Shown here: piece by piece, positions 1,690 to 24,183 of the stretch
Position numbering within the stretch: the stretch's first letter is position 1
How the letters are laid out: every line of letters begins with the position of its first letter
From: a virus
Direction: 5' to 3' (one strand)
IMG/VR virus record: IMGVR_UViG_3300038786_000220
Coordinates: 1-24,205 of that record
Length of the DNA: 24,205 nt
Translations under genes and position numbers: made by a program
Notes under the pieces: generated by a model
The model's input: only the letters and a program-made list of their open reading frames with translations
The model's database searches: none
Told to the model about the DNA's origin: nothing

Positions 1690-3828
1690 TTAAGAACATG
1701 CTACAGTATGACCTAGTGTGCTATCGTTATTAATATTAGACCTATTACTAACAGAAGGCTCGTTATCCTCTAGTAACGAAGAAAAAGTAGAGCCACTATT
1801 TGGCTTGTTTTGTTTCTTTATTTGTAAAAGAGGACCGCTTCCATTACTAACGTCTGACCATATTTTATTAACTAATACCTTACCATTTTCACTTACAATT
1901 GTACTTAAATAATAGATACCACTTGTATTCTCTACACCTTGTTCATCTGTAGAATAATAAATATGCTGCTTAGTTCCGCCAACTGAACACGTACTTGTTC
2001 CAACCGCAGAAGAAGCAATAAATTCACCAGAATATTTAACGTAGTTCTCGATAATTCCGTATGGCTCAAATAAAACACCGTCCCAGTATCTCCTAATCCA
2101 CCTATCTAAATTAACATCTGTAACTCTATACCATCCAGGATCCGCAGCAGTACCATCCATCTTTATTAAGTTTGTAGCATTTTCAAAACTATCTGATTCT
2201 ATTACGAAGTCAGTACCGACTGGTCTAGATGAAGCTTCCCAGTTCAATTCGGAAACGTCGCTATCTGTTTTTAAATTAATTAAATATTGCTCAGGACACT
2301 CGATACAAGTTGTAAATATAGATCCAGTCCATTTTCTAACAAAACCATCTTGTTGATACCATATATTAGAAGTTGCTATATTTGTATCTGCATCAAATAA
2401 AGTAACACCGTTAAAAGTGTCTTCCTTATTACTCCAGTTTTGTCCATTATATGATCCTAATTGATAAACAGTATCTTCCGCAGATCTACAAGCTTTAAAA
2501 TAAGAATCAAATGGTTCAGATGCATTAATTTGAGTAAATCCAGAAACCTCTTCGACAACAGTCTTCCAACTTAAAAATGAATTTCCTAAGTTAATAATAT
2601 GAATCCCACTACTAACCATTGATTGACCAGCAGCAATATCAAAATCTACGTCTTCTTCGTAATCACTTGCTTCTATTTTACCAGATACGTTATACCTTCC
2701 AATTCCAATGTCATAAACAGCATTTACTGTTAAATTTGATCCACCAATTATAATATTTTTAACTGGATCTCCTATGGAAGCAGCTTGAGCACCATTATTA
2801 GACTCAATATCATAACTAAATGAATTTAAATTAGGAACATCATAAAAAAGAGCACCCTGGTATTGCCATCTCTTACCGTTACATATATACCATCCTTCAA
2901 AATCAGTATTATTTTTACCTCTTCCATATGTTAATTCTAATAAATCTCCGGTTGCATTAGAAATATTATTAATATCTAAATCAAAATTATTTAAATTAAA
3001 TGTACTAGGTTCTATTGAAATAATAGATCCAACTGGAAGATTGTTAAACACAGCAGATTTATCTTTCCAAACAGCGTATCCATTAGAGTCTGCTGACACC
3101 AATATATTAGCTTCTTCTGCTCCCGTATTATACTTTATTGAATCAACTGTAATATCTTTAGTTTTAACGTGAGTTATTGTATTAAATAAAGAATTTGAGA
3201 ATGTTGCAAGGTGTAACTCGTTATGTGTATATAAGTTACTAGTTAAATTATCTAAATCATACTTAATATTTAAATTACTAATATATTCAGTATTAATAAT
3301 ACCAACGCTAAGTATTGCGTTGTCTGCTGTTTTAGTTAAATTAAATGATGATCCATTACTAGATTCATCGGTTATGCTAAAATTAATTTTAGTAGAAGAT
3401 CCATAAAATACAGAAGGCGTAAGTTTAAAACTTAAAGCGTTATTATATACATGATCATTATTTAAAGCACCTGTTACAAAACTAGCAGGTGAGAAGTCAG
3501 TTGACTCTATAGTATGTGGTCTAAGTATATCATGAATTGTAGTTACATTATCAACGACTGAACTTACGTTTAATCTATCCCATGTTTTGTAACCACTGAT
3601 CCCAGGTAAGCCTATATCACCGACAGGGCCTCTTATTCCCATTGGTCCAGTAATACCCTTTATTCCTGATCCACCATTTAAACCTGTTTTACCTATAGGT
3701 CCTCGCATTCCTCCATTTATTAATTGACCAAAATTAAAATTAAGTTTATCAACTTTATCTTTTGCCCACCAATTATAGTTATTAGGATCTAGGTCACTTT
3801 TAAATATTTCTTTAATACTTATAGCCAT
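1690..3828 (-). CDS. collagen-like tail fibre protein with collar-like module
   Basis: 712 residues. The N-terminal segment (1-38, ending FNFGQLIN) matches the style of the next gene's N-terminus and probably docks on the baseplate. Residues 40-81 are 14 uninterrupted Gly-X-Y triplets, a likely collagen-type triple helix. A beta-rich shaft follows to about 245, then SADSNGYAVWK (245-255), LPVGSI (264-269), GWYICNGK (312-319) and VPNLN (331-335), which resemble the phage tail-collar fold. The C-terminal third contains two related segments with aromatic W/Y and G-x-x-F patterns (around the RKWTGSIF and RRYWDGVLF motifs), and a low-complexity Ser/Asn tail. No membrane span or enzyme motif is visible. 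Its start lies 3 bases after the stop of the 1495-residue gene, so the two are translationally linked. Likely a homotrimeric fibre for host recognition; the receptor is unknown. Confidence 0.88.
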   Translation of the reverse strand: MAISIKEIFKSDLDPNNYNWWAKDKVDKLNFNFGQLINGGMRGPIGKTGLNGGSGIKGITGPMGIRGPVGDIGLPGISGYKTWDRLNVSSVVDNVTTIHDILRPHTIESTDFSPASFVTGALNNDHVYNNALSFKLTPSVFYGSSTKINFSITDESSNGSSFNLTKTADNAILSVGIINTEYISNLNIKYDLDNLTSNLYTHNELHLATFSNSLFNTITHVKTKDITVDSIKYNTGAEEANILVSADSNGYAVWKDKSAVFNNLPVGSIISIEPSTFNLNNFDLDINNISNATGDLLELTYGRGKNNTDFEGWYICNGKRWQYQGALFYDVPNLNSFSYDIESNNGAQAASIGDPVKNIIIGGSNLTVNAVYDIGIGRYNVSGKIEASDYEEDVDFDIAAGQSMVSSGIHIINLGNSFLSWKTVVEEVSGFTQINASEPFDSYFKACRSAEDTVYQLGSYNGQNWSNKEDTFNGVTLFDADTNIATSNIWYQQDGFVRKWTGSIFTTCIECPEQYLINLKTDSDVSELNWEASSRPVGTDFVIESDSFENATNLIKMDGTAADPGWYRVTDVNLDRWIRRYWDGVLFEPYGIIENYVKYSGEFIASSAVGTSTCSVGGTKQHIYYSTDEQGVENTSGIYYLSTIVSENGKVLVNKIWSDVSNGSGPLLQIKKQNKPNSGSTFSSLLEDNEPSVSNRSNINNDSTLGHTVACS

Positions 3829-8379: not shown

Positions 8380-11300
8380 TTATATATTAGTCTCTGTTAT
8401 ATTTGGTGTTGAAAAATCAACAAGATTACTTCCAGAGCTATACACTCCACTATCGTTGTAATTATCTAACATTGATGATGTTATAGCATTAACGTTCTTA
8501 CCAGTAGCCTTATATTTAGAATAGACCTCAATATCAAATTGAAAATCATTATCATTAGAATCCAAGATATCTATTCCTATTTTCTTAGAATAAGTTAAGT
8601 TCCCAAATGTATTACTAGAAACACCACCAACTTTACCAGAACCAGTTGATCCTACTCCATAATAATCTGTCATTCTATATTGGAAAACAAGGTCAACTAC
8701 TATCGAATTCTCACTATTACCAGGTATTACTTTTTTACCTCTTTTATTACTTGAATCAACGACTATCGATTGTTTACTAAGAGGTGAAATATATAGAAAA
8801 GATCCACATGATTTTGCTCCAAGTAAATACTGGTCATTCGGTTCAAATGAATTCTTTAATGCTTTTCTAGCAATAAATTCACCTTCATTATTTTTAGCTA
8901 AAATTGCTCTAAATGGTGTTTGTTTTTTACCGAATGAATCAGAAGATCTCCTAGGAGTTGTTTTTGGCATACTAATAAATCCGTTTGAAGCTATTTCAAG
9001 AGCATTAAATCCACCAGTAGCAATAGGATGATCAATATGTATTAGTATGTTTGAATCATAAATATCTGTTCCTACTAAAGACGTTTCAATTAGACCTCTA
9101 GTTTTTCCATCAGGACCTTCAGCTGGTTCATCGCCAATATGTCCATTCCATATAAAATCATCAAGGGGTGATCCGCTTGGCTGATTATCGGGAAGAGAAA
9201 GACTTGTAAAATCTTTATATTCTAGATCTGTATTTCCTGTATCAGTTACAGTGCTTGGTTGTGGTATATTATAAGCTGTCGAAATACCATATTCGTAAGA
9301 ATCAACCCCTGATATATCTAAATGATCTATATCTCCACTTTGTCCGTCTGTTTCATTTAAATACAATCCATCATCATTTGCTATATTCTTATATCTAGAA
9401 TAAATAAACTGACCCTTTAGTTGCATTGATTGTATTGGACTTTCATTAAAGTAACTAGGACTACCAATACCAACGTCTTCTGAATCTAAATTCTGATAAA
9501 CAATAGGTACCATATCATAATTACCTTCTGTTGTATAATATGTATTTGATGAAACTTCTGAAGCGATTTCTCTTGTTCTTAATCCAAACACTCTTGCATT
9601 GCTAGAAGAAGGAGCTGGTTTTTCAACGTCCCCCAATACTCTAGCTATTAATTCTAAATCAGATGCTTGTGTATTTGCTAGTCTTATTTTAAAGTTTTTA
9701 GTAACAATAAATCCTTTATAATCCTCGGAAGGTATTTCATCTACGTAATATCCACCGAATACTTTAACAGTACTATTGTTAGTAACTGGCGTTACGTTAC
9801 CATCTTCATCAACGATCTGTACTAATAGTTCCCCTACCTTTCTTTCAATTTGTGCTCTTAATACTTTTATTTCATTTTGAAGTTCTAAAAGCTTATCATA
9901 AACTGAAATAGGATTTTGTTCTCCACTTAAAAAGCCTGAAGCTAACGCAGCTCCATTATGTGCAAAATAAGTTTCGTTAACCGTAAAAGAATCACCAATG
10001 TGATCATACAATCCAACAGATTCTAAATCTTCGTTTAGTGTAACTTTTAAATTATCTAATTCGTTTTGGTTAATTAAACTTGATATTGAATCAGTTGAAA
10101 GTTCCCCATCTGGAAATTCAACCTTAATAATTTCTGACCAATCACTCATTATAGGATTAGCAGGATATCCTGCCTCAGAAATAGATTTAACCATAATCTC
10201 TACAATTTCTCCAGAGCTTAATGGAACATCTAATGAATTAAAATTAACAACTTGTGCATCTTCTTCACTTTGAATACTCCAAAAATATTTACCATCTTCA
10301 TTTAATTCCCTTTCTCTAACAGGACTATAAACTTCTACCCAATTAGAAAAAGCTGCAGTCTTATTAGTTTGATTAGTAGAATCATTAAATCCTATTTGTT
10401 CAACCTGGCTAGTTTTACCAGAAGTAGATACGTATCTGTATCTAATCTTAAATTGAACTACTTCTTGTGAAACTTCTTCACCTATTGTCTTAGGTTCTGG
10501 TATTGGCCAAAATCCTCTAACTCTATATTTTGGAGTAACTTTAGTAATATCAGCAGACTCTGCTGATGCCTTTATTTCAGATACTATAGATGCATATAAC
10601 TTAGATTCTGATTCTCTTTCACTAACAAGAGATCTAAACTCATTATATTGTTTGTTTTTAGCAACTTTAGATTTAAACTTCTTAGTGTTTAATAAAGATT
10701 TTTTAGCTCGTATAGCCTCGTTAATATTAGATAAACTTTGTTCAGCTGAAGCTTTATCTGCTTTAAGTTGTTTAATTTTTTTAGTTGTAGTATTGTCAGT
10801 TAAATGTTTATTTATTTGAACAACTTTTAAATTATCAACAGTCACCGTAGGAGTAGTTGGTACTATACCAACACTTGATGGCGGTATGTAATCAACACTA
10901 AGTCCTTTAATAAACTGTCCAAAATCTGCAACTTCTTCGTTGTAATATGATGCTAGGTTTTTTACAGTTCCATCAACAGCAGAAATTTGTAGTTCATTTG
11001 AATAGAATCCAATACCAGGTGAATACTCATTTGATGGTATATTTGAAACAGGGTCTATTGGCTTAATAAATACAACTTGTCTTTCGTCAAATCCGATATT
11101 TATTTCAACTCCTAAATCAACATCGATGTCTTTGTATACTGATAACATATTTGATCCTACCATTATAGGTTCAAATCCTTCAATTAATTCTAACTCAACT
11201 TGTGATGTTGAGTTATCTATTGCTTTAACAATGTATCGTGTTCTTAATTCTCCAGAGTTAATAACTAGTGACTCTGCAACCTTTAAAACTTCAGTGTCCT

Positions 11301-14608: not shown

Positions 14609-17452
14609 TTAAATTATGTTTAAAATATTTTTAATTGTTGTATTCGTATTTCCGTTAGAATCTAATAAATCCAATTCTACCGTGTAATATCCTTTATGTT
14701 TAAATAAATGAGTTAGTATTGGATTATTATAATATATATCTTCTACATTTAACGTATTATTAATTACTTTCCACTGTTCTGAAATTATCCCAGGCATGTT
14801 TGTTAAATCATAAGAAAACGTAACGTGATTTAATTTATGTAATTCAACCAAGTTATTTATTATATATGTATCATCAAAACCTGGGTTATAACTTATGAAG
14901 TTTAATTTTTCAACAATCATACTATCTATATTGTCATTATTAAAGTAAACATTACTAAAATCATAACTACGAGTAGCTTCTTTACCAACACATAATATGT
15001 ATATGCATTCATCTACCGTGTTCTCTTCTAAATCGCCGTCATTATCAACATCTTTAAAAATAGGATTAAAATTAAATTTAGTTAATATAGGGTGATCTAT
15101 TGAATCTAAACTAGATAACTCATCAACAACTCCTTGCCATTTTAATAAATCAGTAGGACTTCCGTTAGGGAAATCACTTGTTATTATGTAAGAATCTGTA
15201 ATAGTTTTACCATCCATCGGATTAATTTGTTCAATCATAATAGGATGTACATTAGACTCTCCTAGTATTTTAATTTGAAAAGATGAATTTATATCTCCGC
15301 CAATTCTTGTCATTTTCCAAGTTACTTCAGGTCCGTCATCCCATACATGTGTTTTAAGATCAGCCCATTGATACGGTCCAGGTGTTTCATTAAAACCACT
15401 AGGTTTTAAAACATCTAAATACCTTCTAACAGTAGAGTGTTGTATTCCAACGTCAAACTCATCATAAACATAATTACTACGATCCATTGTTAAATAGTAT
15501 GTACCAATAACGTCATTGACAGGAATTAAATTCTCTCTAGACCAATCCCAATCTGATCCACTATTATCCCATGCATGTTTGTAATTTTTCCAGTCTAATT
15601 GAGGAGGTGCTAATTGAGTTAATCCGTAAATTTCAACGTTTTTATTCTTAACCTCTATCCATTCGCTGTTAATCTTAGTACTTTTAACATTGTATAAATC
15701 ATATAAGTTAGTTTCAACACTATAAGATCCAGCATACGGTAAAGTTAACGGCATGTTATTATACTCATCAATAGGTCCTCTAAAAGATCTATTGTAATCC
15801 CTAGGTCCTGTTAATACCCATTCAATCTCATAGACACCACGATGCCACCAATTTTCCCACGTTAATAAATTATTAATAGTAGAATCATGATCTGCCATAT
15901 ATAAATCTAAGATATTACCTTGTTCATTTGTAGCAGATGCATCAGTTTTCATTACTTGTATTGCACTAGATACTTCAGCATCTTCAGCATCTTCCCATGT
16001 AAGATCAGCTAGATTCCATTCACCATCTTCTATTCCTTTAACATGCAAAGAGATAGGAGCTCCAATTGGAATTCCATCAATTGTATTAAACGTATTTAAA
16101 TTATTATCATAATACCCTTCATAGAAATTATTAATAGACTCTACAATACTCAGTTTATCATCTTTTGATATTGAATTAAAGTCTTGTCTAATACCAGTAA
16201 GTCTGTAATCTACTTTACGGAGATCTTCTATGAATATATCTCTTTTTGCTGGTACTTTAGTGGTCTTGAACTCAACACCTGCATTTTGTACTTTAATATT
16301 ATGTTGATTGTTCCATACATTTTGATTAAACTGAGAGAAATAGTCACCTTCTCCAGTTATATCTACTATTTTAGCTTGTAATGGAAGATATTCTTTTTGT
16401 AGTTTCTTTTTTAATCCATATAACTTAATTAAAACTTCATCAGGGCTATAATCCATAGTCTCTTTAACGGTAGGGATATCCCATTCGTCTTGTAAACCAG
16501 TTGGTGCATTTAATCGATATACTAATGAGAACCTAGAAGTTTTCTTCTGATTTGAATTAGGTAAATCGTTTCCTTTATTTTTATCAGCTAAAAAACCAAT
16601 AGTATCTTGGTTTGGAATGGCAACCGCCTTTAGTTTTCCGAAATTTTCAGATTGCTCATTAATGTTTAACCAGTATTCCTTTAAAGTTATTTTATCATAT
16701 CCGAAGAAATCAATAGCGTTTAATATAGCTTTGTATGTTCCTATAAATGGTTTAATTTGAGACGCTTGTAGTAATAATTCTTTACGTTTCTGATTTAATA
16801 TTATATGATCAGGTGATTGCTCTTGTATATTAGAATCCCTAAAGATATAATAATCTAAATTATCAAGATTCATACCCATATTATCTAACAAAACCTTTAA
16901 TCTCTCGTCTTCTCCTTCAACCTCACCATATACCTTTATAGATGCAATTTCTCTTGTCTCAATACCATTTACTACTTCAATAACGCTTAAAGTTCTAATG
17001 TGAAAACCTTCAGTATCTGACGATAGAGCAGCTTGTACAACAATAGGACGTGCATGTATTTGGCCTGTCACTAACTTCTTACCAATAAATGTTTGGCTAG
17101 ATGTGCTTGATGGTAGTAAACTACTTGATTGTTCTTTATCTATTTTAATATTAAATTCACCAGCTTCAGCCTTCGCACTATATAGAAATATATCGGTACT
17201 TGTATTATAGTCATCATTAAATCTAAACTTAAAGCTCACTTCACCATCTGCTTCAGCAATTGGAGTAGTATGCAAATCTTCACCTAAAGGTCCTTCGACT
17301 TCTTCTAAAATATGTAAAGTCAAGGTTTCATATAATCCTGTAGAAACCAATGGAAGATATGAAACACCTTGCCATAACTCTAATTCAGAATTATATATTA
17401 AATTTAAGTCGTTGGACTCGTTATCAAAAAATCTTAGATTATTATAAGCCAT
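14609..17452 (-). CDS. large baseplate wedge-type protein at the gp7 position, 947 residues
   Basis: It follows the gp6-like gene with only the 90-codon gene between, the place held by gene 7 in T4, whose product (1032 residues) binds two gp6 copies in each wedge. Visible parts: a beta-rich N-terminal third; a well-defined helical motif at about 220-262 (KRKELLLQASQIKPFIGTY, then AIDFFGY and LKEYW); Ig/PKD-like segments at about 537-600 (YEIEWVLTGP ... GSYSVETNLYDLYN) and at the C-terminus, about 880-947 (WKVINN ... GYYTVELDLLDSNGN). Assignment as a gp7 analogue rests on position and size. I see no diagnostic gp7 signature, and a fibre-connecting role is the alternative. Its start is 1 base after the stop of the 90-codon gene, and its stop abuts the next ATG. 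Confidence 0.7.
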   Translation of the reverse strand: MAYNNLRFFDNESNDLNLIYNSELELWQGVSYLPLVSTGLYETLTLHILEEVEGPLGEDLHTTPIAEADGEVSFKFRFNDDYNTSTDIFLYSAKAEAGEFNIKIDKEQSSSLLPSSTSSQTFIGKKLVTGQIHARPIVVQAALSSDTEGFHIRTLSVIEVVNGIETREIASIKVYGEVEGEDERLKVLLDNMGMNLDNLDYYIFRDSNIQEQSPDHIILNQKRKELLLQASQIKPFIGTYKAILNAIDFFGYDKITLKEYWLNINEQSENFGKLKAVAIPNQDTIGFLADKNKGNDLPNSNQKKTSRFSLVYRLNAPTGLQDEWDIPTVKETMDYSPDEVLIKLYGLKKKLQKEYLPLQAKIVDITGEGDYFSQFNQNVWNNQHNIKVQNAGVEFKTTKVPAKRDIFIEDLRKVDYRLTGIRQDFNSISKDDKLSIVESINNFYEGYYDNNLNTFNTIDGIPIGAPISLHVKGIEDGEWNLADLTWEDAEDAEVSSAIQVMKTDASATNEQGNILDLYMADHDSTINNLLTWENWWHRGVYEIEWVLTGPRDYNRSFRGPIDEYNNMPLTLPYAGSYSVETNLYDLYNVKSTKINSEWIEVKNKNVEIYGLTQLAPPQLDWKNYKHAWDNSGSDWDWSRENLIPVNDVIGTYYLTMDRSNYVYDEFDVGIQHSTVRRYLDVLKPSGFNETPGPYQWADLKTHVWDDGPEVTWKMTRIGGDINSSFQIKILGESNVHPIMIEQINPMDGKTITDSYIITSDFPNGSPTDLLKWQGVVDELSSLDSIDHPILTKFNFNPIFKDVDNDGDLEENTVDECIYILCVGKEATRSYDFSNVYFNNDNIDSMIVEKLNFISYNPGFDDTYIINNLVELHKLNHVTFSYDLTNMPGIISEQWKVINNTLNVEDIYYNNPILTHLFKHKGYYTVELDLLDSNGNTNTTIKNILNII

Positions 17453-17453
17453 A

Positions 17454-17726
17454 TTATCTAAAGTTTTTATAGTCTTTTTTTGTTGTGTACGATTTAAAGC
17501 CTTTTAGAAATGTAACTGAATCAATAAGATCCGACAATATCTTTTGGATTAAAATTACAAAGTCATTCATTCTAGCATTTCTGTAAATGTAAGGAGATAA
17601 TGAGTTCTTTAAAACATTATTAGTATAATCATTAACTTTGTTCTTACGATTATCGACCGCCGTTTCTCTAACACTATACGTTCTTTTCTGTCTACTCTTA
17701 AACAGATTTTGTATTAATGATGCCAT
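17454..17726 (-). CDS. small basic protein between gp6-like and gp7-position genes
   Basis: 90 residues, rich in Lys and Arg (for example KSRQKR, NRKNK, TTKKDYK at the C-terminus). A central helix-forming part (MNDFVILIQKILSDLIDSVTF, about 53-73) is amphipathic and not a clear membrane span. The ATG shares its first base with the stop of the 606-residue gene (TAATG arrangement), so it is translationally coupled and probably made in fixed ratio to the wedge proteins. The tight packing and clean frame make it a real gene. Its family is unknown to me. A small wedge cofactor or assembly chaperone would fit its location but is only a guess. Confidence 0.75.
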   Translation of the reverse strand: MASLIQNLFKSRQKRTYSVRETAVDNRKNKVNDYTNNVLKNSLSPYIYRNARMNDFVILIQKILSDLIDSVTFLKGFKSYTTKKDYKNFR

Positions 17727-19546
17727 TATATCTGCTTTCTATTTTTAGCTTGTATTTTAGAAAAAATAGTATTAGGAACAGCTGGTTCATCAAAATAAAC
17801 TGAAAGAGCTCCTTGTTCTCCTAATTTAGCGTCATCTAAAACTACAACATTATCTCTGTCTAGCCATCCTCCTCTAAATAATGCAACTTCTTCTCTGCTT
17901 AATATTATGTCTCCAAACGAATCCAAGTTAATTACTTCTTCAGGTAGTGCACTATTTGGTTCGAAGTTTATCTTCTGTTGAGTGACTGTTCTTTTAAAGA
18001 ATACATACCTTGATTTACCGTTTCCAATATCTTCAAGTATTGGTGTAGAAGGGGTAACTGTAACCTTGTCTAATACATAATAGCCTAGTCTCCTCGCATC
18101 TTCTTCAGCTTTAGATATAAATCTAACATTAACTGAATCAATACCCTCTACGTTCTCTAATATTGCTATAATGTCTGATTTTGGTAAACGATCTCTTCTT
18201 GTTATATTGATTAAATATTCAGAAATCTTAGAACGAACTTCAGAATAAAGAGTTGGTTTGTGATATCCTTCGAAATATCTAAGTTTTATATCCATTCTAA
18301 AATACTGTAAAATAGGTTCTACTATTTTAACCTCAGTCGTAACCATTTGTTGTCCACTATTTTCAAGTAGTGATAAAAATCCATTTTTTTCGTCACTCGA
18401 GAAAAAGAATTCATCTAACTCCAAATTAAAATAATCTTTGTTATTTGTTAATTTTCTTGCAGTATCAGGTAACATAAATAAATATATTACATTATCATCA
18501 TCAATATACCCATCATCTGTTGTATTATAAGCATCTAAATAAGAAAACATTCCATATCTTGAAAGAAAATGTTCATATGAATTTGGATTAGCTAATACAA
18601 ATGAATGTGATTGTAATGGTGCTATTAGTTTAGTTAATTTAATGTCTTCTGGGTCTGCTCCCATTTTAGGGGAAGTTGTAAATGAAGATTCTAGCAATTC
18701 ATTTAAATCATATTCATCTCCTAATGAATCAAAACCAGGAGTTATAAATTTAAATGTAAGATCTTTAGAACCAGTTAAGTTTCCTTTAGCTCCGTCAGTC
18801 TTTAAATATTCTACATTAATTGAAGCTCCAGTTGTAGGTATCATACCAAATGAACCATTGCCAAAATAAATGTCTAATCCTCCATTAATACCCGTTTTAA
18901 CTAAATACCCCTTAGTTCCAACCTTCATATCATATAATGAATCATATTTAGTCCATAATTCACTGTTAATACTAACTCTAACTGAATGATGATCTGTATT
19001 ACCTCTAACAACTATATTATATGATTGTAATTTTTCACCAGTTGAAGTTACAACTTGCGATTCAATTTTCCCTTGCGATATTGGTATATAAATATAATCT
19101 GAACTACCTTTATCTATTCTAAACTTATCATTGTTTGTTTTTAAGATATATTCTAATCCGTTTGATGTGCATTTAATTATAGAATTCTTAGATATATTAA
19201 GAGCATCACCTGCAATATCTTCTAAAGATGTTGTGCTCAATCTTATTTTTACTTCACCATAAGAACTTGCTCCTCTAAATGCATCATGACCAGCTAACCT
19301 AGCTAATCCATAAATAGATTCTGGATTCTGTGCAGTTAACATATTTTGCTCAACCGTAGCATCCTCTACGTAGAAGAATATTAGTTTAGTTATTTCTGAC
19401 AATACATCAAGAATTTGAGAGAAAGGTGAAGCTGTTGTAAATAACTCACCAGTTCTTCCATATATACGAGAAATATATGATCTCGTATCGGAGATCATTT
19501 CGTTTGCTTTTATTCTAGTTGTATTTAAAAAATTAAATTTAGGCAT
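17726..19546 (-). CDS. gp6: baseplate wedge protein, gp6-like (baseplate J family)
   Basis: 606 residues (T4 gp6 has 660). The N-terminal helical part includes FFYVEDATVEQNMLTAQN (57-74) and SIYGLARLAGHDAFRGASS (77-95), typical of gp6/J proteins, where this region packs in the wedge core. Residues 223-256 carry the family hallmark: a strand ending FGNGSFGMIPTTG, then INVEYLKTDGAKGN. About 405-480 is the C-terminal J-like domain (LQYFRMDIKLRYFEGY, LPKSDIIAILENVEGIDSV). In T4, two gp6 copies with gp7 form the trifurcation unit, and gp6 dimers link neighbouring wedges into the ring. The gene sits directly behind the gp25-like gene (19-base gap), the conserved 25-6 order of contractile tails. No abnormality is seen. 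The family call is firm by motif. Confidence 0.9.
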   Translation of the reverse strand: MPKFNFLNTTRIKANEMISDTRSYISRIYGRTGELFTTASPFSQILDVLSEITKLIFFYVEDATVEQNMLTAQNPESIYGLARLAGHDAFRGASSYGEVKIRLSTTSLEDIAGDALNISKNSIIKCTSNGLEYILKTNNDKFRIDKGSSDYIYIPISQGKIESQVVTSTGEKLQSYNIVVRGNTDHHSVRVSINSELWTKYDSLYDMKVGTKGYLVKTGINGGLDIYFGNGSFGMIPTTGASINVEYLKTDGAKGNLTGSKDLTFKFITPGFDSLGDEYDLNELLESSFTTSPKMGADPEDIKLTKLIAPLQSHSFVLANPNSYEHFLSRYGMFSYLDAYNTTDDGYIDDDNVIYLFMLPDTARKLTNNKDYFNLELDEFFFSSDEKNGFLSLLENSGQQMVTTEVKIVEPILQYFRMDIKLRYFEGYHKPTLYSEVRSKISEYLINITRRDRLPKSDIIAILENVEGIDSVNVRFISKAEEDARRLGYYVLDKVTVTPSTPILEDIGNGKSRYVFFKRTVTQQKINFEPNSALPEEVINLDSFGDIILSREEVALFRGGWLDRDNVVVLDDAKLGEQGALSVYFDEPAVPNTIFSKIQAKNRKQI

Positions 19547-19565: not shown

Positions 19566-19919
19566 TTATATGTAAACTCCTAACTGAAATCTAGAATCTA
19601 CAGTAATATCTAAAAACATTGCATGTCGTGTAGCATCTTCTACCATTTCAACAGTGACATCTACACTATATTTTCTAGCCAAAGGCACATGTGCATTCAA
19701 CTGTTCATCTATTATTTTCTTTAATTGGTAATCATTATATCTTAATTCATATACGTGATCTTCTAAATTAGCACCGAAATCAGGTGCTCCTAAAACCTCT
19801 CCCTTTCTAGTAAAAAGAACAGTTTCTATCTGAGTTAATAACATAGACAACTCTGCATCCTGTTGGAGTGCGTCTGGCTTGTAATTAGGTTCACCTATAT
19901 TTTTAATGTAAAATTCCAT
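19566..19919 (-). CDS. gp25: baseplate wedge subunit, gp25-like
   Basis: 117 residues (T4 gp25: 132). The core pattern of the gp25 family is at residues 30-59: QIETVLFTRKGEVLGAPDFG, then NLEDHVYEL, followed by helix YNDYQLKKIIDEQL and the C-terminal strands. gp25 is the most conserved wedge piece of contractile tails (phage, type VI secretion, tailocins). It bridges the gp6/gp7 core to the sheath's first ring. The conserved E-P-R-type core is only partly visible (E41 and P46 present; basic residues R38/K39 just before). Start at ATG 19919 after an A-rich leader, 16 bases behind the 276-codon gene and followed by the gp6-like gene, which supports the assignment. Confidence 0.92.
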   Translation of the reverse strand: MEFYIKNIGEPNYKPDALQQDAELSMLLTQIETVLFTRKGEVLGAPDFGANLEDHVYELRYNDYQLKKIIDEQLNAHVPLARKYSVDVTVEMVEDATRHAMFLDITVDSRFQLGVYI

Positions 19920-19935
19920 ATAATTATATATCCTT

Positions 19936-20766
19936 TTAAGAATGCATCATCCAATCAGTTCCTTCATCAGTTTTAATCTCTTCGATAACCGCGTCTAACT
20001 CATCTTCTCCCATTCCTTGAATAAGGTCTGCATTTACTGTAACGTTTCCTGGTAGAGTGAATCCAAAGATTCCTAATTTCTGCCCTAGTGATATTTTTAT
20101 CTTGGCGGAACAATATCTAAAAAATGCTTCATCACCAAATAATGCACATTCTGGAATTGTTTCGTAAACTTCTAATATAACATTCTTTGATGGAGTTCCT
20201 CCTGTGAATTTCAACTCATGTGTTAATTGACTATATTGAAAACTAATTGGATTTTCAATGATCTGTCTAGCAAGATCATAAAAACTTTCATTAATAACAT
20301 ATGCTTGTAAGTTTTCCGCTCCTGCTGCAGTTTGAGATCCTCCTGACATTCCATTATGCATCATTCTTTCTGCTGAAAAATCACCTTGATTAAAATTCAT
20401 ATCTGAAGATCCACCATATCTTGATCCTGTTTCTGCACATCCATATACTGAATATATTTCATTTCCTCCTGTTTCGGAATTAGGACCCGGTAACGTAATA
20501 GATCTATTAGACTTAAAATACTCTGTAGAAAATAAAGCTACAGGTATTACTACTAAACTTTCTTTAACCGAGTATTCATAATTTTTATAAAACCACTTCT
20601 TTGCTCTCTTGACAATATTTTGAACTTCTTTCTTTGGTAAATTCATCGGAATCATGCAAGAACCTGTAACGTCATCCGCTAATTCTAAAACAAATTCATT
20701 AAAACAATTACTACCAAATTGAGGATTTTCTAACCACGACTCTTCACCTACAAAAATATTACTCAT
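19936..20766 (-). CDS. virion structural protein, possible neck/connector component
   Basis: 276 residues. Segments: an acidic N-terminus; a helical basic stretch KKEVQNIVKRAKKWFYKNYEY (45-65); a strand region with VIPVALF and NRSITLPGP; a flexible Gly/Ser/Met-rich loop (about 95-150); a C-terminal domain with VILEVYETIPECALFGDEA (195-213), RYCSAKIKISLGQKLGIF and FTLPGNVTVN; and an acidic tail. My impression is of a head-tail neck-type protein of large phages, with the RAKKWFY and LG..L..F..LPG patterns, but no named family can be confirmed by eye. The position directly upstream of gp25 and gp6 supports a virion role. Fifteen bases separate it from the amidoligase-like gene. Alternative: another baseplate or tail-terminator protein. 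Confidence 0.72.
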   Translation of the reverse strand: MSNIFVGEESWLENPQFGSNCFNEFVLELADDVTGSCMIPMNLPKKEVQNIVKRAKKWFYKNYEYSVKESLVVIPVALFSTEYFKSNRSITLPGPNSETGGNEIYSVYGCAETGSRYGGSSDMNFNQGDFSAERMMHNGMSGGSQTAAGAENLQAYVINESFYDLARQIIENPISFQYSQLTHELKFTGGTPSKNVILEVYETIPECALFGDEAFFRYCSAKIKISLGQKLGIFGFTLPGNVTVNADLIQGMGEDELDAVIEEIKTDEGTDWMMHS

Positions 20767-20781
20767 TTTTTATTATTATTT

Positions 20782-22074
20782 TTAAACTTCTTTATATAAG
20801 ATCTTTTCAGTATCTTTAAATCTAGCTTGTTTTTTATCGTATCTTCCTTCTCTGAATATTCCGCCTTCCATAGAACCCTTTAGTATTCCATCACCGTATA
20901 TATAACCGTCTTTAATATTGACACTTTGATGAACATAACTACTTTTAATCTTCGAAGAAGTTATTACACAGTTATCGTAAAAATTACAGTAATTAATATC
21001 TGATCCTTCAATCTCACACTTGAATAAATCACAGTGTGCTAATTCACCTCTTACCTTACAATCTATAAAATCGTATCTTTCAAGATCAACACAATATCTA
21101 AGTTCTCCATTTTGTACTTGTACCTTTCCAGTATCTGTATCGTAGTTTATATGGCCCTTAACTAAAGTACCGTGCGTGAATAATTTCATTACAAGTTCTT
21201 TAATGTTAACCCAATGTAGATCTAATATTTGTGGATATTTAACTAGGTCAACTGTAAAGGTAACGTCATTCCATTCTTTTTCTATAAATCTCCAATCTTT
21301 CCTTGCATCTATAATACGTTGATTATCAGAAAGTATTTTCTTTAGCTCTAATGCGTTCAGTGGTGTGAAGTGGTTATCTATAGTTGAATTCCAAAGTTGA
21401 ATTAAGAATTGATCTAACATGTGAAGTATTGTTGAAGTTTTCTTTTCCCAGTCAGCTCCTCCAATATATCTAAATTCTAAGTAGTTTTTATGTCTTTTGT
21501 CGAAATTGATTCCGTAGTATTTAGAATCAGGATAAATGAAGTTTTGTGAATGTATTTGCTCACCGTTAAATAAACTCATACCTGTTTTAGGTAATACGAA
21601 TTTTACAGATTTTGCATATGCTGAATTTTTTCTTTCAGGAAAGAATTTGAATACTTGATCTTCTTTAAAATCTAGTATAAACTTAAGCACGTTCATTTTA
21701 GAGATACGGTACTTGTCTTCTATTTTGTTTTTATCAAACGATAAATTTAAGTGAATTGACGTTCTATTATTTGTATATCCATTTTCTTCAATCCAACGGC
21801 ATACATTTATAATCATTAACCTTGCACCGTAATATTCTTGAGGTCCTGTAACAAGCTCCATTAGCTTCTCACCACCACTCATATCTGGTTCTATTTTAAA
21901 TTCGTCTTTGGTAACTTCAAAGTCACTATGTGCTTTTTTCTCTACTCTAATCTTTTTATTTAATAAACTAGCAAGTTCTTTCGCAGTTTTATCAATTGAT
22001 AGATTTGAATAAAACTCGAATTCTACGCCGACAAGGCAGTTTTTTAGTACTTCTGAATCGTTAAATGTGTTCAT
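20782..22074 (-). CDS. amidoligase-like (carboxylate-amine ligase) enzyme with pentapeptide-like C-terminus
   Basis: 430 residues. Residues 14-206 show the pattern of the putative amidoligase family, relatives of glutamate-cysteine ligase and glutamine synthetase that join a carboxylate to an amine using ATP. Key parts are GVEFEF (16-21; E18 and E20 likely metal/ATP ligands), EPDMS (62-66), MELVTGP (72-78), SIHLNLSF (106-113; H108 and N110) and NYLEFRYIGG (197-206). A helical middle follows. Residues about 333-411 then form short F/C/I-centred turns (YDFIDCKV, HCDLFKCEIE, NYCNFYDNCV) like a pentapeptide-repeat right-handed helix. The gene heads the tail operon and is followed 15 bases later by a virion gene. 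Substrate unknown: it may modify a virion or host protein or make a small peptide-like product. The leader holds an AT-rich inverted repeat. Confidence 0.78.
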   Translation of the reverse strand: MNTFNDSEVLKNCLVGVEFEFYSNLSIDKTAKELASLLNKKIRVEKKAHSDFEVTKDEFKIEPDMSGGEKLMELVTGPQEYYGARLMIINVCRWIEENGYTNNRTSIHLNLSFDKNKIEDKYRISKMNVLKFILDFKEDQVFKFFPERKNSAYAKSVKFVLPKTGMSLFNGEQIHSQNFIYPDSKYYGINFDKRHKNYLEFRYIGGADWEKKTSTILHMLDQFLIQLWNSTIDNHFTPLNALELKKILSDNQRIIDARKDWRFIEKEWNDVTFTVDLVKYPQILDLHWVNIKELVMKLFTHGTLVKGHINYDTDTGKVQVQNGELRYCVDLERYDFIDCKVRGELAHCDLFKCEIEGSDINYCNFYDNCVITSSKIKSSYVHQSVNIKDGYIYGDGILKGSMEGGIFREGRYDKKQARFKDTEKILYKEV

Positions 22075-22158: not shown

Positions 22159-22317
22159 CTATGTTGCATTTGATAACCACTTATAAAACAATCTGCCTAT
22201 TAAACTTTTACTAGGGTCTAAGAAGTAATATTCAGATGTTATACCACCGAATTGTACCAGCCTAAACAATACTATAATTAACGATAATGGCACAATTATA
22301 AGCAACTTAAACGCCAC
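22159..22317 (-). CDS. possible 52-residue single-span membrane protein (GTG start)
   Basis: An open minus-strand frame from GTG 22317 to TAG 22159 inside an otherwise empty gap. Residues 4-23 (KLLIIVPLSLIIVLFRLVQF) form a convincing transmembrane helix with a basic residue before it. The C-terminal part, YYFLDPSKSLIGRLFYKWL, has a protein-like mix of residues and Gly/Pro/Asp codons uncommon in random AT-rich DNA. There is no ATG in frame; the frame is open further up to a stop near 22339. An ATG (22349) in another frame with a better A-rich leader begins MVIKSFLYIAM, and a single extra base would join it to this frame. So either GTG is used, the gene is frameshifted, or the frame is spurious. 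Function unknown. Confidence 0.4.
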   Translation of the reverse strand: MAFKLLIIVPLSLIIVLFRLVQFGGITSEYYFLDPSKSLIGRLFYKWLSNAT

Positions 22318-22408
22318 ATTGCAATGTATAAAAATGATTTAATTACCATCTTAGTAGTTTTTTCTATAATGTATTTAATTAATCTTTCCAGGTCTATTTA
22401 TCTAAGGT

Positions 22409-22433
22409 GTTATTATACCATAGTTAGCCACAA
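22409..22433 (-). repeat. 3'-end element E (copy of 22766-22790)
   Basis: Gene-sense edge TTGTGGCTAAC, followed by TATGG and TAATAAC. It matches the element at 22766-22790 in 21 of 25 positions in the same orientation, and contains the stop codon of the 89-codon gene (22424-22426). Two diverged copies, each at the end of a different small gene, are unlikely by chance. GGCTAAC nearly fits the RYYYAAC outer box of integron attC sites. Confidence 0.6.
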
Positions 22434-22693
22434 TTGATTGCTCGAAGTAGGTCTTCTGCTAAAATATCAGTGCATCCTTGTTTGTGTATGTATTCTAAGT
22501 CGGTTTTGTTTAATTCCGCAATTAACAGTTCCCTTTGGTGGCTAACACCAGATAAAATTAATTGCTCTTTATGTTTTTTTAATAGAGCACATACCTCGCT
22601 GTAGTGGTAGTAAACGCCATTTTGTGTTTCTGTTCCTTTTGCATTATTTATAATAAATTTTCCTATTGGTTCTTTATTTTTATTGTTTCCCAC
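22424..22693 (-). CDS. small unknown protein with HKEQL-x-LSGV motif; GTG start, probable 5' frameshift
   Basis: 89 codons from GTG 22693, the only start in frame. Nineteen bases upstream an ATG (22712) with an A-rich leader of the kind used elsewhere here opens a five-codon frame MTNQN followed by TAA. Deleting one T from the AATTAAA run would give MTNQNKVGNNKNKEP in frame, so the true gene probably starts at 22712 and is broken or mis-read by one base. Residues 41-50 are HKEQLILSGV, shared with the 81-codon gene at 23091-23336. The rest differs: a Tyr-rich turn, then a helical acidic C-terminus with Cys at 74 and 88. No known family. The stop lies inside palindromic element E. Confidence 0.6.
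   Translation of the reverse strand: MGNNKNKEPIGKFIINNAKGTETQNGVYYHYSEVCALLKKHKEQLILSGVSHQRELLIAELNKTDLEYIHKQGCTDILAEDLLRAINCG
22544..22573 (-). repeat. 30-base direct repeat copy 1 (codes HKEQLILSGV)
   Basis: Identical at 29 of 30 bases to 23205-23234, in the same orientation and codon phase. The single difference changes Ile to Thr. Similarity falls off sharply on both sides, so this is a shared module inside two otherwise different genes. Confidence 0.8.
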
Positions 22694-22739
22694 TTTAATT
22701 TTGATTTGTCATTGTTTTTTTATTAATTGGTTTCAAAAT

Positions 22740-22790
22740 GTGTTATTAATTTAACACCCTTTTTAGTTATTAAGCCTTAGTTAGGCACAA
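22740..22790 (-). repeat. 3'-end element D with attC-like boxes
   Basis: It begins 2 bases after the stop of the 77-codon gene. In gene sense: TATTGTGCCTAAC, a small hairpin GCCT/AGGC, then about 20 bases on, the perfect hairpin GTGTTA/TAACAC (22740-22757). GCCTAAC fits the integron attC R'' consensus RYYYAAC exactly, and GTTAAAT in the far hairpin fits R' GTTRRRY, though the two boxes pair only over four bases. Bases 22766-22790 are repeated at 22409-22433. Confidence 0.6.
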
Positions 22791-22792
22791 TA

Positions 22793-23026
22793 TTACCCAA
22801 CCTTGTTTATACCACTAAATTGTGTCTTTAAAAGTTCCATAGCTTTTTTAAAGTTGTTTTCTACACTATCAACTTCATCTTTATATTCAGAAGAACTATC
22901 TGCATATAGTATAGTCCATCCATTTTTACCAGCTTGTATCGTTACTATTAATTGGCTCATTCCAACCTTAAAACGTTTTTCTTGTGCTATCTCACTAGAT
23001 GGCATCATTCCCATAAATCTATTCAT
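22793..23026 (-). CDS. small unknown protein, 77 residues
   Basis: Soluble, mixed alpha/beta appearance: N-terminal MNRFMGMMPSSEIAQEKRF, a strand region VGMSQLIVTIQAGKNGWTIL (21-40), an acidic turn YADSSSEYKDEVD, then a C-terminal amphipathic helix (NNFKKAMELLKTQF). Four methionines (1, 5, 7, 8) leave the start uncertain; I chose the first because the A-rich leader (TTAAATAGATAAAG) precedes it. No Cys, no membrane span, no family recognised. It lies in the row of small genes and is followed by palindromic element D. Phage accessory genes of this kind often act early on host functions, but nothing here shows that. Confidence 0.7.
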   Translation of the reverse strand: MNRFMGMMPSSEIAQEKRFKVGMSQLIVTIQAGKNGWTILYADSSSEYKDEVDSVENNFKKAMELLKTQFSGINKVG

Positions 23027-23051
23027 ATCTTTATCTATTTAATTTTGCTAT

Positions 23052-23093
23052 TAATTACGCAACGTGGCATATACAATACGTTGTATGCAATTA
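23052..23093 (-). repeat. 3'-end element C, nested imperfect palindrome
   Basis: Outer arms TAATT (23052-23056) and AATTA (23089-23093) and inner arms CAACGT (23060-23065) and ACGTTG (23078-23083) are separated by unequal internal loops of 3 and 5 bases around a 12-base centre. An alternative hairpin GCAT..ATGC (23067-23088) overlaps. The outer arm contains the stop codon of the 81-codon gene. In gene sense the left edge reads AATTGCATACAAC and the right side GTTGCGTAATTAATA, both close to element B. The asymmetric double-arm form is like that of attC sites. Confidence 0.6.
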
Positions 23094-23336
23094 GTTTGCT
23101 TTAGGGCAGTTACATAAAGATTGTGTTCTAACACCTTCACTTATCTCTGTTATCCATCCAACATCGTCACATTTTTCGCAAACTAACTGTTCGCTTTGCA
23201 ATACAACACCAGATAAAGTTAATTGCTCTTTATGCCATTTTAAAAAATCAGTTAAAGATTGTTCCATTTCTAAAACACTTGTTGCTGTAAACAAATCTTC
23301 TCTACCGTTTATGTATTCTTTTAAATCTATTTTCAT
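23091..23336 (-). CDS. small protein with HKEQL-x-LSGV motif and zinc-finger-like cysteines
   Basis: 81 residues. N-terminal helical half ending FLKWHKEQLTLSGV (31-44), the motif shared with the 89-codon gene. The C-terminal half has CEKCDDVGW (53-61) and later CNC (75-77), giving a C-x2-C...C-x-C set that could bind one zinc ion. The C-x2-C-x2-x-G form resembles single DnaJ-type or ribbon knuckles in many small phage proteins. Possible roles are nucleic-acid or protein binding; none is shown. The leader TTAAATAAATAGAT before ATG 23336 follows the local A-rich pattern without a Shine-Dalgarno. The stop is embedded in palindromic element C. Confidence 0.72.
   Translation of the reverse strand: MKIDLKEYINGREDLFTATSVLEMEQSLTDFLKWHKEQLTLSGVVLQSEQLVCEKCDDVGWITEISEGVRTQSLCNCPKAN
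23205..23234 (-). repeat. 30-base direct repeat copy 2 (codes HKEQLTLSGV)
   Basis: Second copy of the module at 22544-22573 (29/30 bases identical, same frame). It lies at residues 35-44 here and at 41-50 in the other protein, with unrelated flanks downstream. Confidence 0.8.
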
Positions 23337-23359
23337 ATCTATTTATTTAAGTATGTCAT

Positions 23360-23402
23360 TATTCACGCAACTAATCTTATCTGCGGTACGTTGTACACAA
23401 TA
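23360..23402 (-). repeat. 3'-end element B, imperfect palindrome abutting a stop codon
   Basis: Outer arms TATT/AATA and inner arms CAAC (23368-23371)/GTTG (23390-23393) are separated by unequal loops (4 and 5 bases) around an 18-base centre, the same plan as element C. In gene sense it starts TATTGTGTACAAC, directly after the TAG of the 59-codon gene, and ends in GTTGCGTGAATA. It includes the small palindrome GTAC-GTT-GTAC (23386-23396). Confidence 0.6.
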
Positions 23403-23582
23403 CTACTTTACGTCTATTTCAACAATGCTAACCATACCATCTTCTTGCACTTCTTGTAAAGTATATTCTGTATAATCTTCCCACGCTTCTTTATCAATAG
23501 CTTCTTGTGCTTTTTCTCTAGTTTTAAATGTACCTTGTGCTGTTGGCATTTCCCACTCGCACTCAATTTTGTAAATTTTCAT
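23403..23582 (-). CDS. small unknown acidic protein, 59 residues
   Basis: ATG 23582 to TAG 23403, reading MKIYKIECEWEMPTAQGTF at the start, then a charged helix (KTREKAQEAIDKEAWEDYTE, about 20-39) and a C-terminal strand (MVSIVEIDV). This is a compact beta-alpha-beta-like layout with strong acidic bias (about one residue in four is Asp or Glu), which supports a real protein over a chance frame. The leader AAATAAATATAATAAAT matches neighbouring genes. Palindromic elements lie on both sides: element B directly after its stop, element A upstream. No family is recognised. A small acidic phage protein could be a DNA-mimic inhibitor, but this is speculation. Confidence 0.7.
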   Translation of the reverse strand: MKIYKIECEWEMPTAQGTFKTREKAQEAIDKEAWEDYTEYTLQEVQEDGMVSIVEIDVK

Positions 23583-23610
23583 ATTTATTATATTTATTTG
23601 TTAATATTCC

Positions 23611-23670
23611 GTACAGTGTACAACAACGTGTATAGCACATTAAAGCGCGGCCGCCATATACAAACCGTTA
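23611..23670 (-). repeat. 3'-end element A, long imperfect hairpin with GC-rich core
   Basis: Arms AACGTGTATA (23625-23634) and TATACA-AAC-CGTT (23657-23669) pair over ten bases with a 3-base bulge. The centre contains GCGGCCGC (23647-23654), the most GC-rich spot of the region. Next to it is the perfect palindrome GTACA-G-TGTAC (23611-23621). The outer arm overlaps the stop codon of the 81-codon gene at 23668-23670. The position at a gene end and the bulged stem agree with elements B-E, although its sequence is more diverged. Confidence 0.55.
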
Positions 23671-23913
23671 TGAAACATTAATTTTAAAGAACTCGTTAAA
23701 ACTATAAGCTTCTCGCTTATTATTAGATACACCTATTGTGTCAGTGTAAAATGTACAGTTTTTCATAGTCCTAAAATGTATGTATTTAAAATCCGCGTCT
23801 TCAAGTCTCATTTCATTATCACAATTATCAAATTGAGCAATGGCGTAACCTTTTTGCCATTCAAATTCACACAAGACGCATATAGGTCTAGTAATTAATT
23901 CGGTTAGTATCAT
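23668..23913 (-). CDS. small unknown protein, 81 residues
   Basis: Reads MILTELITRPICVLCEFEWQ at the start (Cys12 and Cys15 in a C-x2-C pair), then a region with further cysteines (C31, C53), aromatic residues (FKYIHFRTMKNCTFY) and a C-terminal YSFNEFFKINVS. The isolated C-x2-C could be half of a metal site, but no second pair is clear. No membrane span or known family. The leader TTCAAATAAATTAATATT is A-rich like the others. The upstream gap to the next gene (51 bases) has no palindromic element, while element A overlaps its own stop. It is the first gene of the palindrome-ended row. Confidence 0.68.
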   Translation of the reverse strand: MILTELITRPICVLCEFEWQKGYAIAQFDNCDNEMRLEDADFKYIHFRTMKNCTFYTDTIGVSNNKREAYSFNEFFKINVS

Positions 23914-23964: not shown

Positions 23965-24183
23965 CTATCTTTCTAATATAACATACTCACCAAATGTATC
24001 ATCAAATACCGATAATAGATTTTCGTAATCACCGCTCATCATTTTTTCAATAATAGGTTCTACTGGTATATTTAATTGTGTACAAAGTCTTCTAGCATAG
24101 CTCATTAAAGCGTATGCATTTCCATCAGGTCCTGTTAAATCTATTACTATTGGTCCTTCGTGTTTTTGTTTTTCTCTAATCAT
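23965..24183 (-). CDS. small unknown phage protein with IDLTGPDGNAYAL motif (start uncertain, near window edge)
   Basis: 72 residues from ATG 24183, but the frame stays open to the right edge (upstream codons read QEEKLEE), so the gene may begin outside the window and be longer. The distinctive part is GPIVIDLTGPDGNAYALMSY (residues 10-29), then a basic helix ARRLCTQLNI and an acidic C-terminus ending FGEYVILER. Small phage proteins with an IDLTGP-x-GNA core occur in various tailed phages, as far as I recall, without known function. The helix-forming residues before Met1 make either start plausible. No palindromic element follows its stop, unlike the next five genes. Confidence 0.65.
   Translation of the reverse strand: MIREKQKHEGPIVIDLTGPDGNAYALMSYARRLCTQLNIPVEPIIEKMMSGDYENLLSVFDDTFGEYVILER

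Follow-up and report, generated by a model that had tools for sequence, protein, structure and literature searches.

The DNA analyzed here (the window) is a 24,205-base IMG/VR virus record, and the minus strand of its last third carries a gene for a predicted amidoligase fused to a C-terminal coil, followed by genes for a neck protein and two baseplate wedge proteins (Table 1). The amidoligase-coil open reading frame (ORF) is far beyond chance, because it matches the Pfam family Amidoligase_2 (PF12224) over amino acids 14 to 207 with 32.8 bits and an E value of 8.6e-8 (the curated cutoff of this family is 22 bits), because homologue searches returned hundreds of relatives, and because dN/dS against close relatives is low (about 0.05 to 0.09 overall and about 0.05 to 0.14 in the coil region). 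The gene is under purifying selection. All four motifs that a first-pass annotation had read in the protein were located, namely, GVEFEF (residues 16 to 21), EPDMS (62 to 66), MELVTGP (72 to 78), and SIHLNLSF (106 to 113); the catalytic Glu of MELVTGP, however, is residue 73 and not residue 74, as it had been numbered there. LEFRY (E200-F-R202), a further motif absent from that list, is equally invariant.

A PHROGs search gave no family matching the amidoligase-coil protein, and no defense family was matched with PADLOC. Among NCBIfam models, HalA was matched weakly in two relatives, in the coil region and far under the HalA cutoff. When patterns derived from the family profile were run against 84,980 genomes of bacteria and archaea, no relatives were retrieved; therefore, within the limits of such a pattern search, the family looks confined to phages.

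Table 1. Features of the amidoligase-coil gene and its downstream neighbors in the window
Feature	Coordinates	Strand	Basis
Amidoligase-coil protein, whole gene	20782..22074	(-)	ATG start, 430 aa
Catalytic domain, residues 1-236, predicted GS/GCS-type carboxylate-amine ligase fold	21367..22074	(-)	PF12224 aa 14-207; domain-only AF2 model
GhExE signature G16-V-E18-F-E20, core strand 1, putative metal/ATP site	22015..22029	(-)	G16, E18, E20 in 102/102
E62-P63-D64, acids of the next strand	21883..21891	(-)	E62 in 101/102; P63, D64 in 102/102
E73 of LMELVTG, motif counterpart of E. coli GshA E67 (LLEFITP)	21856..21858	(-)	102/102
H108-L-N110, [HD]x[NH] motif, core strand 4 (GshA H150 in VHYNFS)	21745..21753	(-)	102/102
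R148, possible arginine finger in a loop that precedes the last core strands	21631..21633	(-)	102/102; putative role after PMC2588565
E200-F-R202, Ex[RK] motif, core strand 6 (GshA E328-x-R330)	21469..21477	(-)	102/102
Helical linker, residues 237-302, least conserved part	21169..21366	(-)	2/66 positions invariant in alignment A2; AF2 helices
C-terminal beta hairpin and pentapeptide-like coil with conserved GGxFRxG end	20785..21168	(-)	AF2 strands; HMM matches; Pentapeptide_4 in 6/35
Linked gp13-type (T4) neck protein of 276 aa, starting 15 bases after the enzyme gene	19936..20766	(-)	Profile against PDB, T4 gp13, E 7e-4
gp25-like baseplate wedge protein	19566..19919	(-)	PF04965 E 8.6e-5, under the Pfam cutoff; order fixed in relatives
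gp6-like baseplate wedge protein	17726..19546	(-)	phrog_219 E 3.7e-32

The full chain was modeled with AlphaFold2 (AF2) from an alignment of the window protein and IMG/VR loci only (35 aligned relatives), which gave a pLDDT of 90.6 and a pTM of 0.81. When this model was compared with the PDB, the best matches were glutamine synthetases (GS; E 1.9e-4, probability 1.00), with glutamate-cysteine ligases (GCS), including E. coli GCS, lower down. A model of the first 236 residues only reached a pTM of 0.86, and the best 50 PDB matches listed for it were all GS or GCS, the best GS match having an E value of 1e-3, a probability of 0.99, and a TM-score of about 0.43. The models thus present the domain as a divergent member of the GS fold and offer no competing fold; comparison with the GS and GCS ligases had been suggested in the first-pass annotation, and the predicted fold is theirs and not an unrelated one.

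Conservation was assessed across 102 relatives with pairwise identities below 97% and reaching down to 30% (the Atu_ph07 protein was left out). Invariant in all 102 are G16, E18, E20, P63, D64, S66, E73, T76, G77, H108, N110, S112, R148, K185, Y187, N190, E200, R202, and G205, whereas E62 and T101 are present in 101. Invariant positions cluster in the catalytic domain (45 of 236 positions, versus 6 of 128 in the coil part), and every residue that had been singled out beforehand for a conservation check (E18, E20, D64, H108, and the Glu now numbered E73) is kept. The carboxylate-amine ligase superfamily has been defined by a GhExE signature, acids in strands 2 and 3, an [HD]x[NH] motif, and an Ex[RK]x2D motif, and its features include arginines both within core strand 5 and in the preceding loop (PMC2588565). 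The first three of these motifs are present in the amidoligase-coil protein, and the fourth is present in its ExR part only. In the model, G16-V-E18-F-E20 sits on predicted strand 13-23, H108-L-N110 on strand 106-113, and E73 on strand 71-75, while E62 and D64 lie at or just past strand 58-63, these strands being the putative equivalents of those in the definition. E200-F-R202 falls on predicted strand 199-205, where residue 205 is an invariant G and not the D of Ex[RK]x2D; a D is found at position 208 in at least 90% of family alignment A2. R148 is located in a loop, and no strand-5 arginine was identified, K185 being invariant instead.

Of 35 diverse members, 27 matched Amidoligase_2 at an E value of 0.1 or lower, and the most distant members lie near or under the Pfam threshold. 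Profile-sequence alignment to E. coli GlnA and GshA was tried and gave no match, so that the link to the superfamily rests on motifs and fold. The motifs of GshA correspond one for one (GLERE at residues 25 to 29, LLEFIT at E67, VHYNFS at H150, and YIEVR at E328-R330), and three of the four are matched in GlnA (GPEPE, MHCH, and IEVR); however, neither protein gave a significant sequence alignment, the window domain is about half their size, and TM-scores are about 0.4. We consider membership of the amidoligase/GS-GCS class very probable, and the catalytic set, as read from the aligned sequences, appears intact and complete.

Beyond the linker, residues 340 to 408 are predicted to form short strands mostly spaced five residues apart, with a pLDDT of about 93 (about 89 to 96 by block). 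In a comparison of the family profile with PDB sequences, the enzyme domain had no match and only the coil was matched, to AlbG/McbG-like proteins, MfpA, and Qnr (best E 8.5e-4, for AlbG). Pentapeptide-repeat proteins are built from tandem A(D/N)LxX repeats wound into a right-handed quadrilateral helix. AlbG (E 0.013) and the pentapeptide protein 6fls were also among the fold matches of the full-chain model to the PDB, presumably via the coil. The Pentapeptide_4 model was matched in 6 of 35 members, and hydrophobicity at period 5 in the single sequence was marginal (p 0.025). The C-terminal pentapeptide-like coil of the first-pass annotation is therefore well supported in one respect, as a structure that AF2 predicts with high confidence, and less so in another, as sequence alone makes it a borderline pentapeptide repeat; the term “pentapeptide-like” seems right by predicted structure and borderline by sequence. 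The coil is retained in relatives down to 30% identity, and when the coil region alone was used as the query against the phages collection, only huge-phage relatives were retrieved.

The gap of 15 bases to the next gene, reported earlier, is present, and the protein encoded by that next gene was identified by a profile whose sole PDB matches are T4 gp13 chains; its homologue in Tenacibaculum phage PTm1 is annotated as “neck protein.” The enzyme had been described as lying among baseplate genes; more precisely, its immediate neighbor is this gp13-type neck protein, and gp25 and gp6 come after it. A neighborhood survey for a fixed link to the 276-codon gene, as had been proposed, showed that in 92 of 92 nonredundant marine-clade relatives the enzyme is encoded on the strand of the neck gene and precedes it within 300 bases. 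Since circularity had to be avoided, a second set of loci was retrieved with the neck protein as the query, and the enzyme was upstream in 78 of 79 of them, with spacings of −14 to +18 bases; the 79th locus was too short to judge, making the count 78 of 78 assessable loci. In most relatives, genes for a gp5-type OB-fold hub protein and an S1-domain protein of ∼420 amino acids lie upstream of the enzyme gene, which places it, as a rule, inside a hub-neck-wedge block. The earlier description of the enzyme as heading an operon holds only in the window; in relatives the gene usually follows the S1 and hub genes.

The ∼420-amino-acid protein contains two to three S1 RNA-binding domains, and its gene immediately precedes that of the amidoligase in most marine relatives (positions 8417-9682 of locus L032; also in G001, G003, G007-G009, and W01-W05). 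Homologues of this protein are also present in Lak-A1 and in each of the five huge phages. The window itself carries an insert of ∼1.8 kb (22159-23913) between a conserved gene for a 72-amino-acid protein (23965-24183) and the amidoligase. This insert contains several minus-strand ORFs of 50 to 89 amino acids, and it was seen in no fetched relative. Two of its ORFs share HKEQLxLSGV (70-nucleotide direct repeat, 77%), palindrome-like short stretches follow several of them, and the insert looks like an array of gene cassettes. Elsewhere in the window, a 712-amino-acid protein (1690-3828) has a collagen-like Gly-X-Y stretch near its N terminus, of the kind frequent in tail fiber proteins. A 947-amino-acid protein (14609-17452) has a core (about residues 140 to 390) common to all T4-like Bacteroidota phages tested and longer stretches shared with the marine clade and LR756500 only; its match in Lak-A1 is crossed by TAG codons.

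Relatives with 31 to 39% identity were found in uncultured huge phages of 462 to 735 kb, of which the genomes over 634 kb probably belong to the Mahaphage clade, for which hosts among the Bacteroidetes were predicted (PMC7162821). Records of 634,780 to 735,411 bases keep the enzyme and the coil, mostly without the link to the neck gene. In LR756500, the enzyme gene lies 844 bases before the neck gene; in LR756504, it is ∼2.3 kb from the neck gene and on the other strand; and in LR756501, LR756502, and LR745206, both the neck gene and the gp6 gene are remote from the enzyme, the former by hundreds of kilobases. Because these phages keep the enzyme without the link, linkage does not require a neck or baseplate substrate, and the adjacency to the neck gene may stem from shared late expression and not from a shared substrate. 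Second, weak amidoligase profile matches were observed in LR756501 (380912-381295; E 2e-4) and LR756502 (208702-209247; E 0.002) and are possibly diverged paralogues.

No match to family profile A2 was found in Lak-A1, PTm1, MA9V-2, MaF61, pT24, or PAU. gp6-like genes are common to these six phages, and Lak-A1, PTm1, and MA9V-2 also have a homologue of the neck protein. As six phages with related virion genes do without the enzyme, it is not a general T4-type assembly part, in agreement with the earlier view that it falls outside the standard T4 set.

Among viral proteins, the predicted fold of the window protein matches models of phage proteins carrying the name “amidoligase enzyme.” Most of the phage amidoligase models listed match part of the chain only, whereas the window protein has a fused beta-helical coil, and its gene sits in a neck-baseplate block. 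The closest viral model, A0A6J5PQ40 from an uncultured Caudovirales phage (439 amino acids, “Uncharacterized protein”), is a full-length structural match covering enzyme and coil (TM 0.84) at 22% identity to the window protein, and many of the other viral matches are named amidoligase. The enzyme domain is also homologous to that of the amidoligase gp196 of Agrobacterium phage Atu_ph07 (profile A2 E 6.4e-19; hhalign, 97%), but the coil is not aligned and the phage lineage differs. The Atu_ph07 amidoligase gene (locus L007, 9524-11026) lies near portal and prohead core genes, on the opposite strand. A search of titles and abstracts for amidoligases associated with baseplates, virions, or pentapeptide repeats retrieved no such fusion. 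The enzyme-coil architecture is thus widespread and one for which we found no prior description, while the kind of enzyme is itself known.

From the residues, the fold, and the gene order, we infer an activity, late expression, docking by the coil, a protein substrate, and a virion target. The enzyme would be made late in infection, together with the neck and baseplate proteins, and would bind ATP and metal through the residues of the GhExE, E62/D64/E73, HxN, and ExR motifs. A carboxylate, probably that of glutamate, aspartate, or a C terminus, would be phosphorylated and then coupled to an amine. The coil would most likely provide the surface by which the enzyme docks onto a protein substrate, most likely a virion protein or another late phage protein, and the product would be an added amino-acid-like group or an isopeptide bond on the target. 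We give slightly less than an even chance to the reading that we tentatively favor, in which a protein ligase is produced late and acts on a protein of the virion or on some other late protein of the phage. That a neck or baseplate protein gains an amide or isopeptide bond or an amino acid during assembly, with the coil recognizing the particle, is possible but somewhat unlikely. The strongest support for a virion-linked role comes from the strict operon in the marine clade, and the strongest counterevidence comes from the three huge phages that break the link and from the related phages that do without the enzyme. The apparent lack of a conserved partner peptide in the operon also counts against the favored reading. 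The C terminus of the neck protein was considered as a candidate substrate, as its DEGTDWMMHS motif is strongly conserved in the marine clade, and was rejected because it does not track the enzyme: the neck proteins of enzyme-bearing huge phages end in FFFMVKK, FFFCIKK, and SWFKMAR.

Alternatively, the enzyme could modify the host late in infection, acting, for example, on cell wall peptides or an envelope protein and thereby excluding other phages or timing lysis. Its retention in huge phages without a virion link fits such a virion-independent role, and a role of this kind has been proposed for other phage PF12224 proteins: the cassettes of the podoviruses phiEco32, LUZ24, tf, and RIO-1 contain a PF12224 enzyme, as does the window family, and have been suggested to alter peptidoglycan against superinfection (PMC5498523, PMC10580990). 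However, these cassettes also contain a type II GATase, an ATP-grasp protein, GGACT, and a second COOH-NH2 ligase and lie away from virion genes, whereas none of these partners adjoins the window-family enzyme, whose neighbors are the S1, neck, gp25, and gp6 genes. GATase_6 was found in none of 14 family records (nine contigs of 130 to 236 kb, which may be incomplete genomes, and five huge phages), with phage tf scoring positive, and GGACT was found in four of the 14, far from the enzyme gene; the window-family enzyme is therefore most likely not the podoviral peptidoglycan cassette. In phage tf, moreover, the amidoligase cassette lies outside the virion module, in contrast to the position of the window gene inside the neck-baseplate module, and the coil family profile gives no match to the tf enzyme. 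On this evidence, we regard host modification as unlikely.

Small molecules are the substrates of most characterized superfamily members, which counts in favor of the synthesis of a gamma-glutamyl peptide or an amine conjugate, with the neck adjacency reflecting shared late transcription only. The broken neck link in several huge phages points the same way, as does the absence of a Pup-like neighbor, which has been taken to favor small-molecule or peptide synthesis over protein conjugation (PMC2588565). Small-molecule synthesis nevertheless seems unlikely to us, at about the level of host modification, given that the conserved block holds no other metabolic gene, that the fused coil would be of no evident use to such an enzyme, and that a bystander would hardly be expected to show the strict spacing to the neck gene seen in all 92 loci.

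The fixed place in the neck-baseplate block would also suit a structural role in the virion or its assembly, for which the enzyme fold was recruited while its catalysis was lost or became unimportant; many virion proteins have beta-helical coils. Against this, the tested catalytic residues are invariant or nearly so in 102 proteins, with the invariant positions concentrated in the catalytic domain, and relatives that share the neck and baseplate genes do without the enzyme; we consider a purely structural role very unlikely. Conjugation of the Pup type, in which the enzyme would join a small modifier protein to its targets, has a model in PafA, a GS-fold carboxylate-amine ligase that acts on proteins and whose modifier gene is always adjacent (PMC2588565), and the third gene past the neck gene is conserved and encodes a 90-amino-acid protein. 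Such conjugation is nevertheless highly improbable, as no conserved small gene was found between the S1, enzyme, and neck genes, the 90-amino-acid protein ends in NFR and not in G[EQ], and the window family, which differs from PafA also in its C-terminal coil, has the strand-6 motif ExR, as in GS and GCS, and not the [QH]x4D of PafA.

Phage amidoligases are usually explained as cell wall or metabolite enzymes encoded in separate cassettes. The family described here is a distinct and very common branch, present in hundreds of contigs and in huge phages of 462 to 735 kb, that carries a fused coil and, in the marine clade, keeps a fixed place next to the neck and baseplate genes. Were its target in the host, the enzyme would be a late effector common among marine phages and missing from the literature searched. 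With a phage protein as the target, amide bonds would be formed at the expense of ATP in the course of phage assembly, a kind of chemistry that, to our knowledge, would be new in the morphogenesis of tailed phages. Given the conserved residues and the compact operon, the function of the enzyme is open to direct tests.
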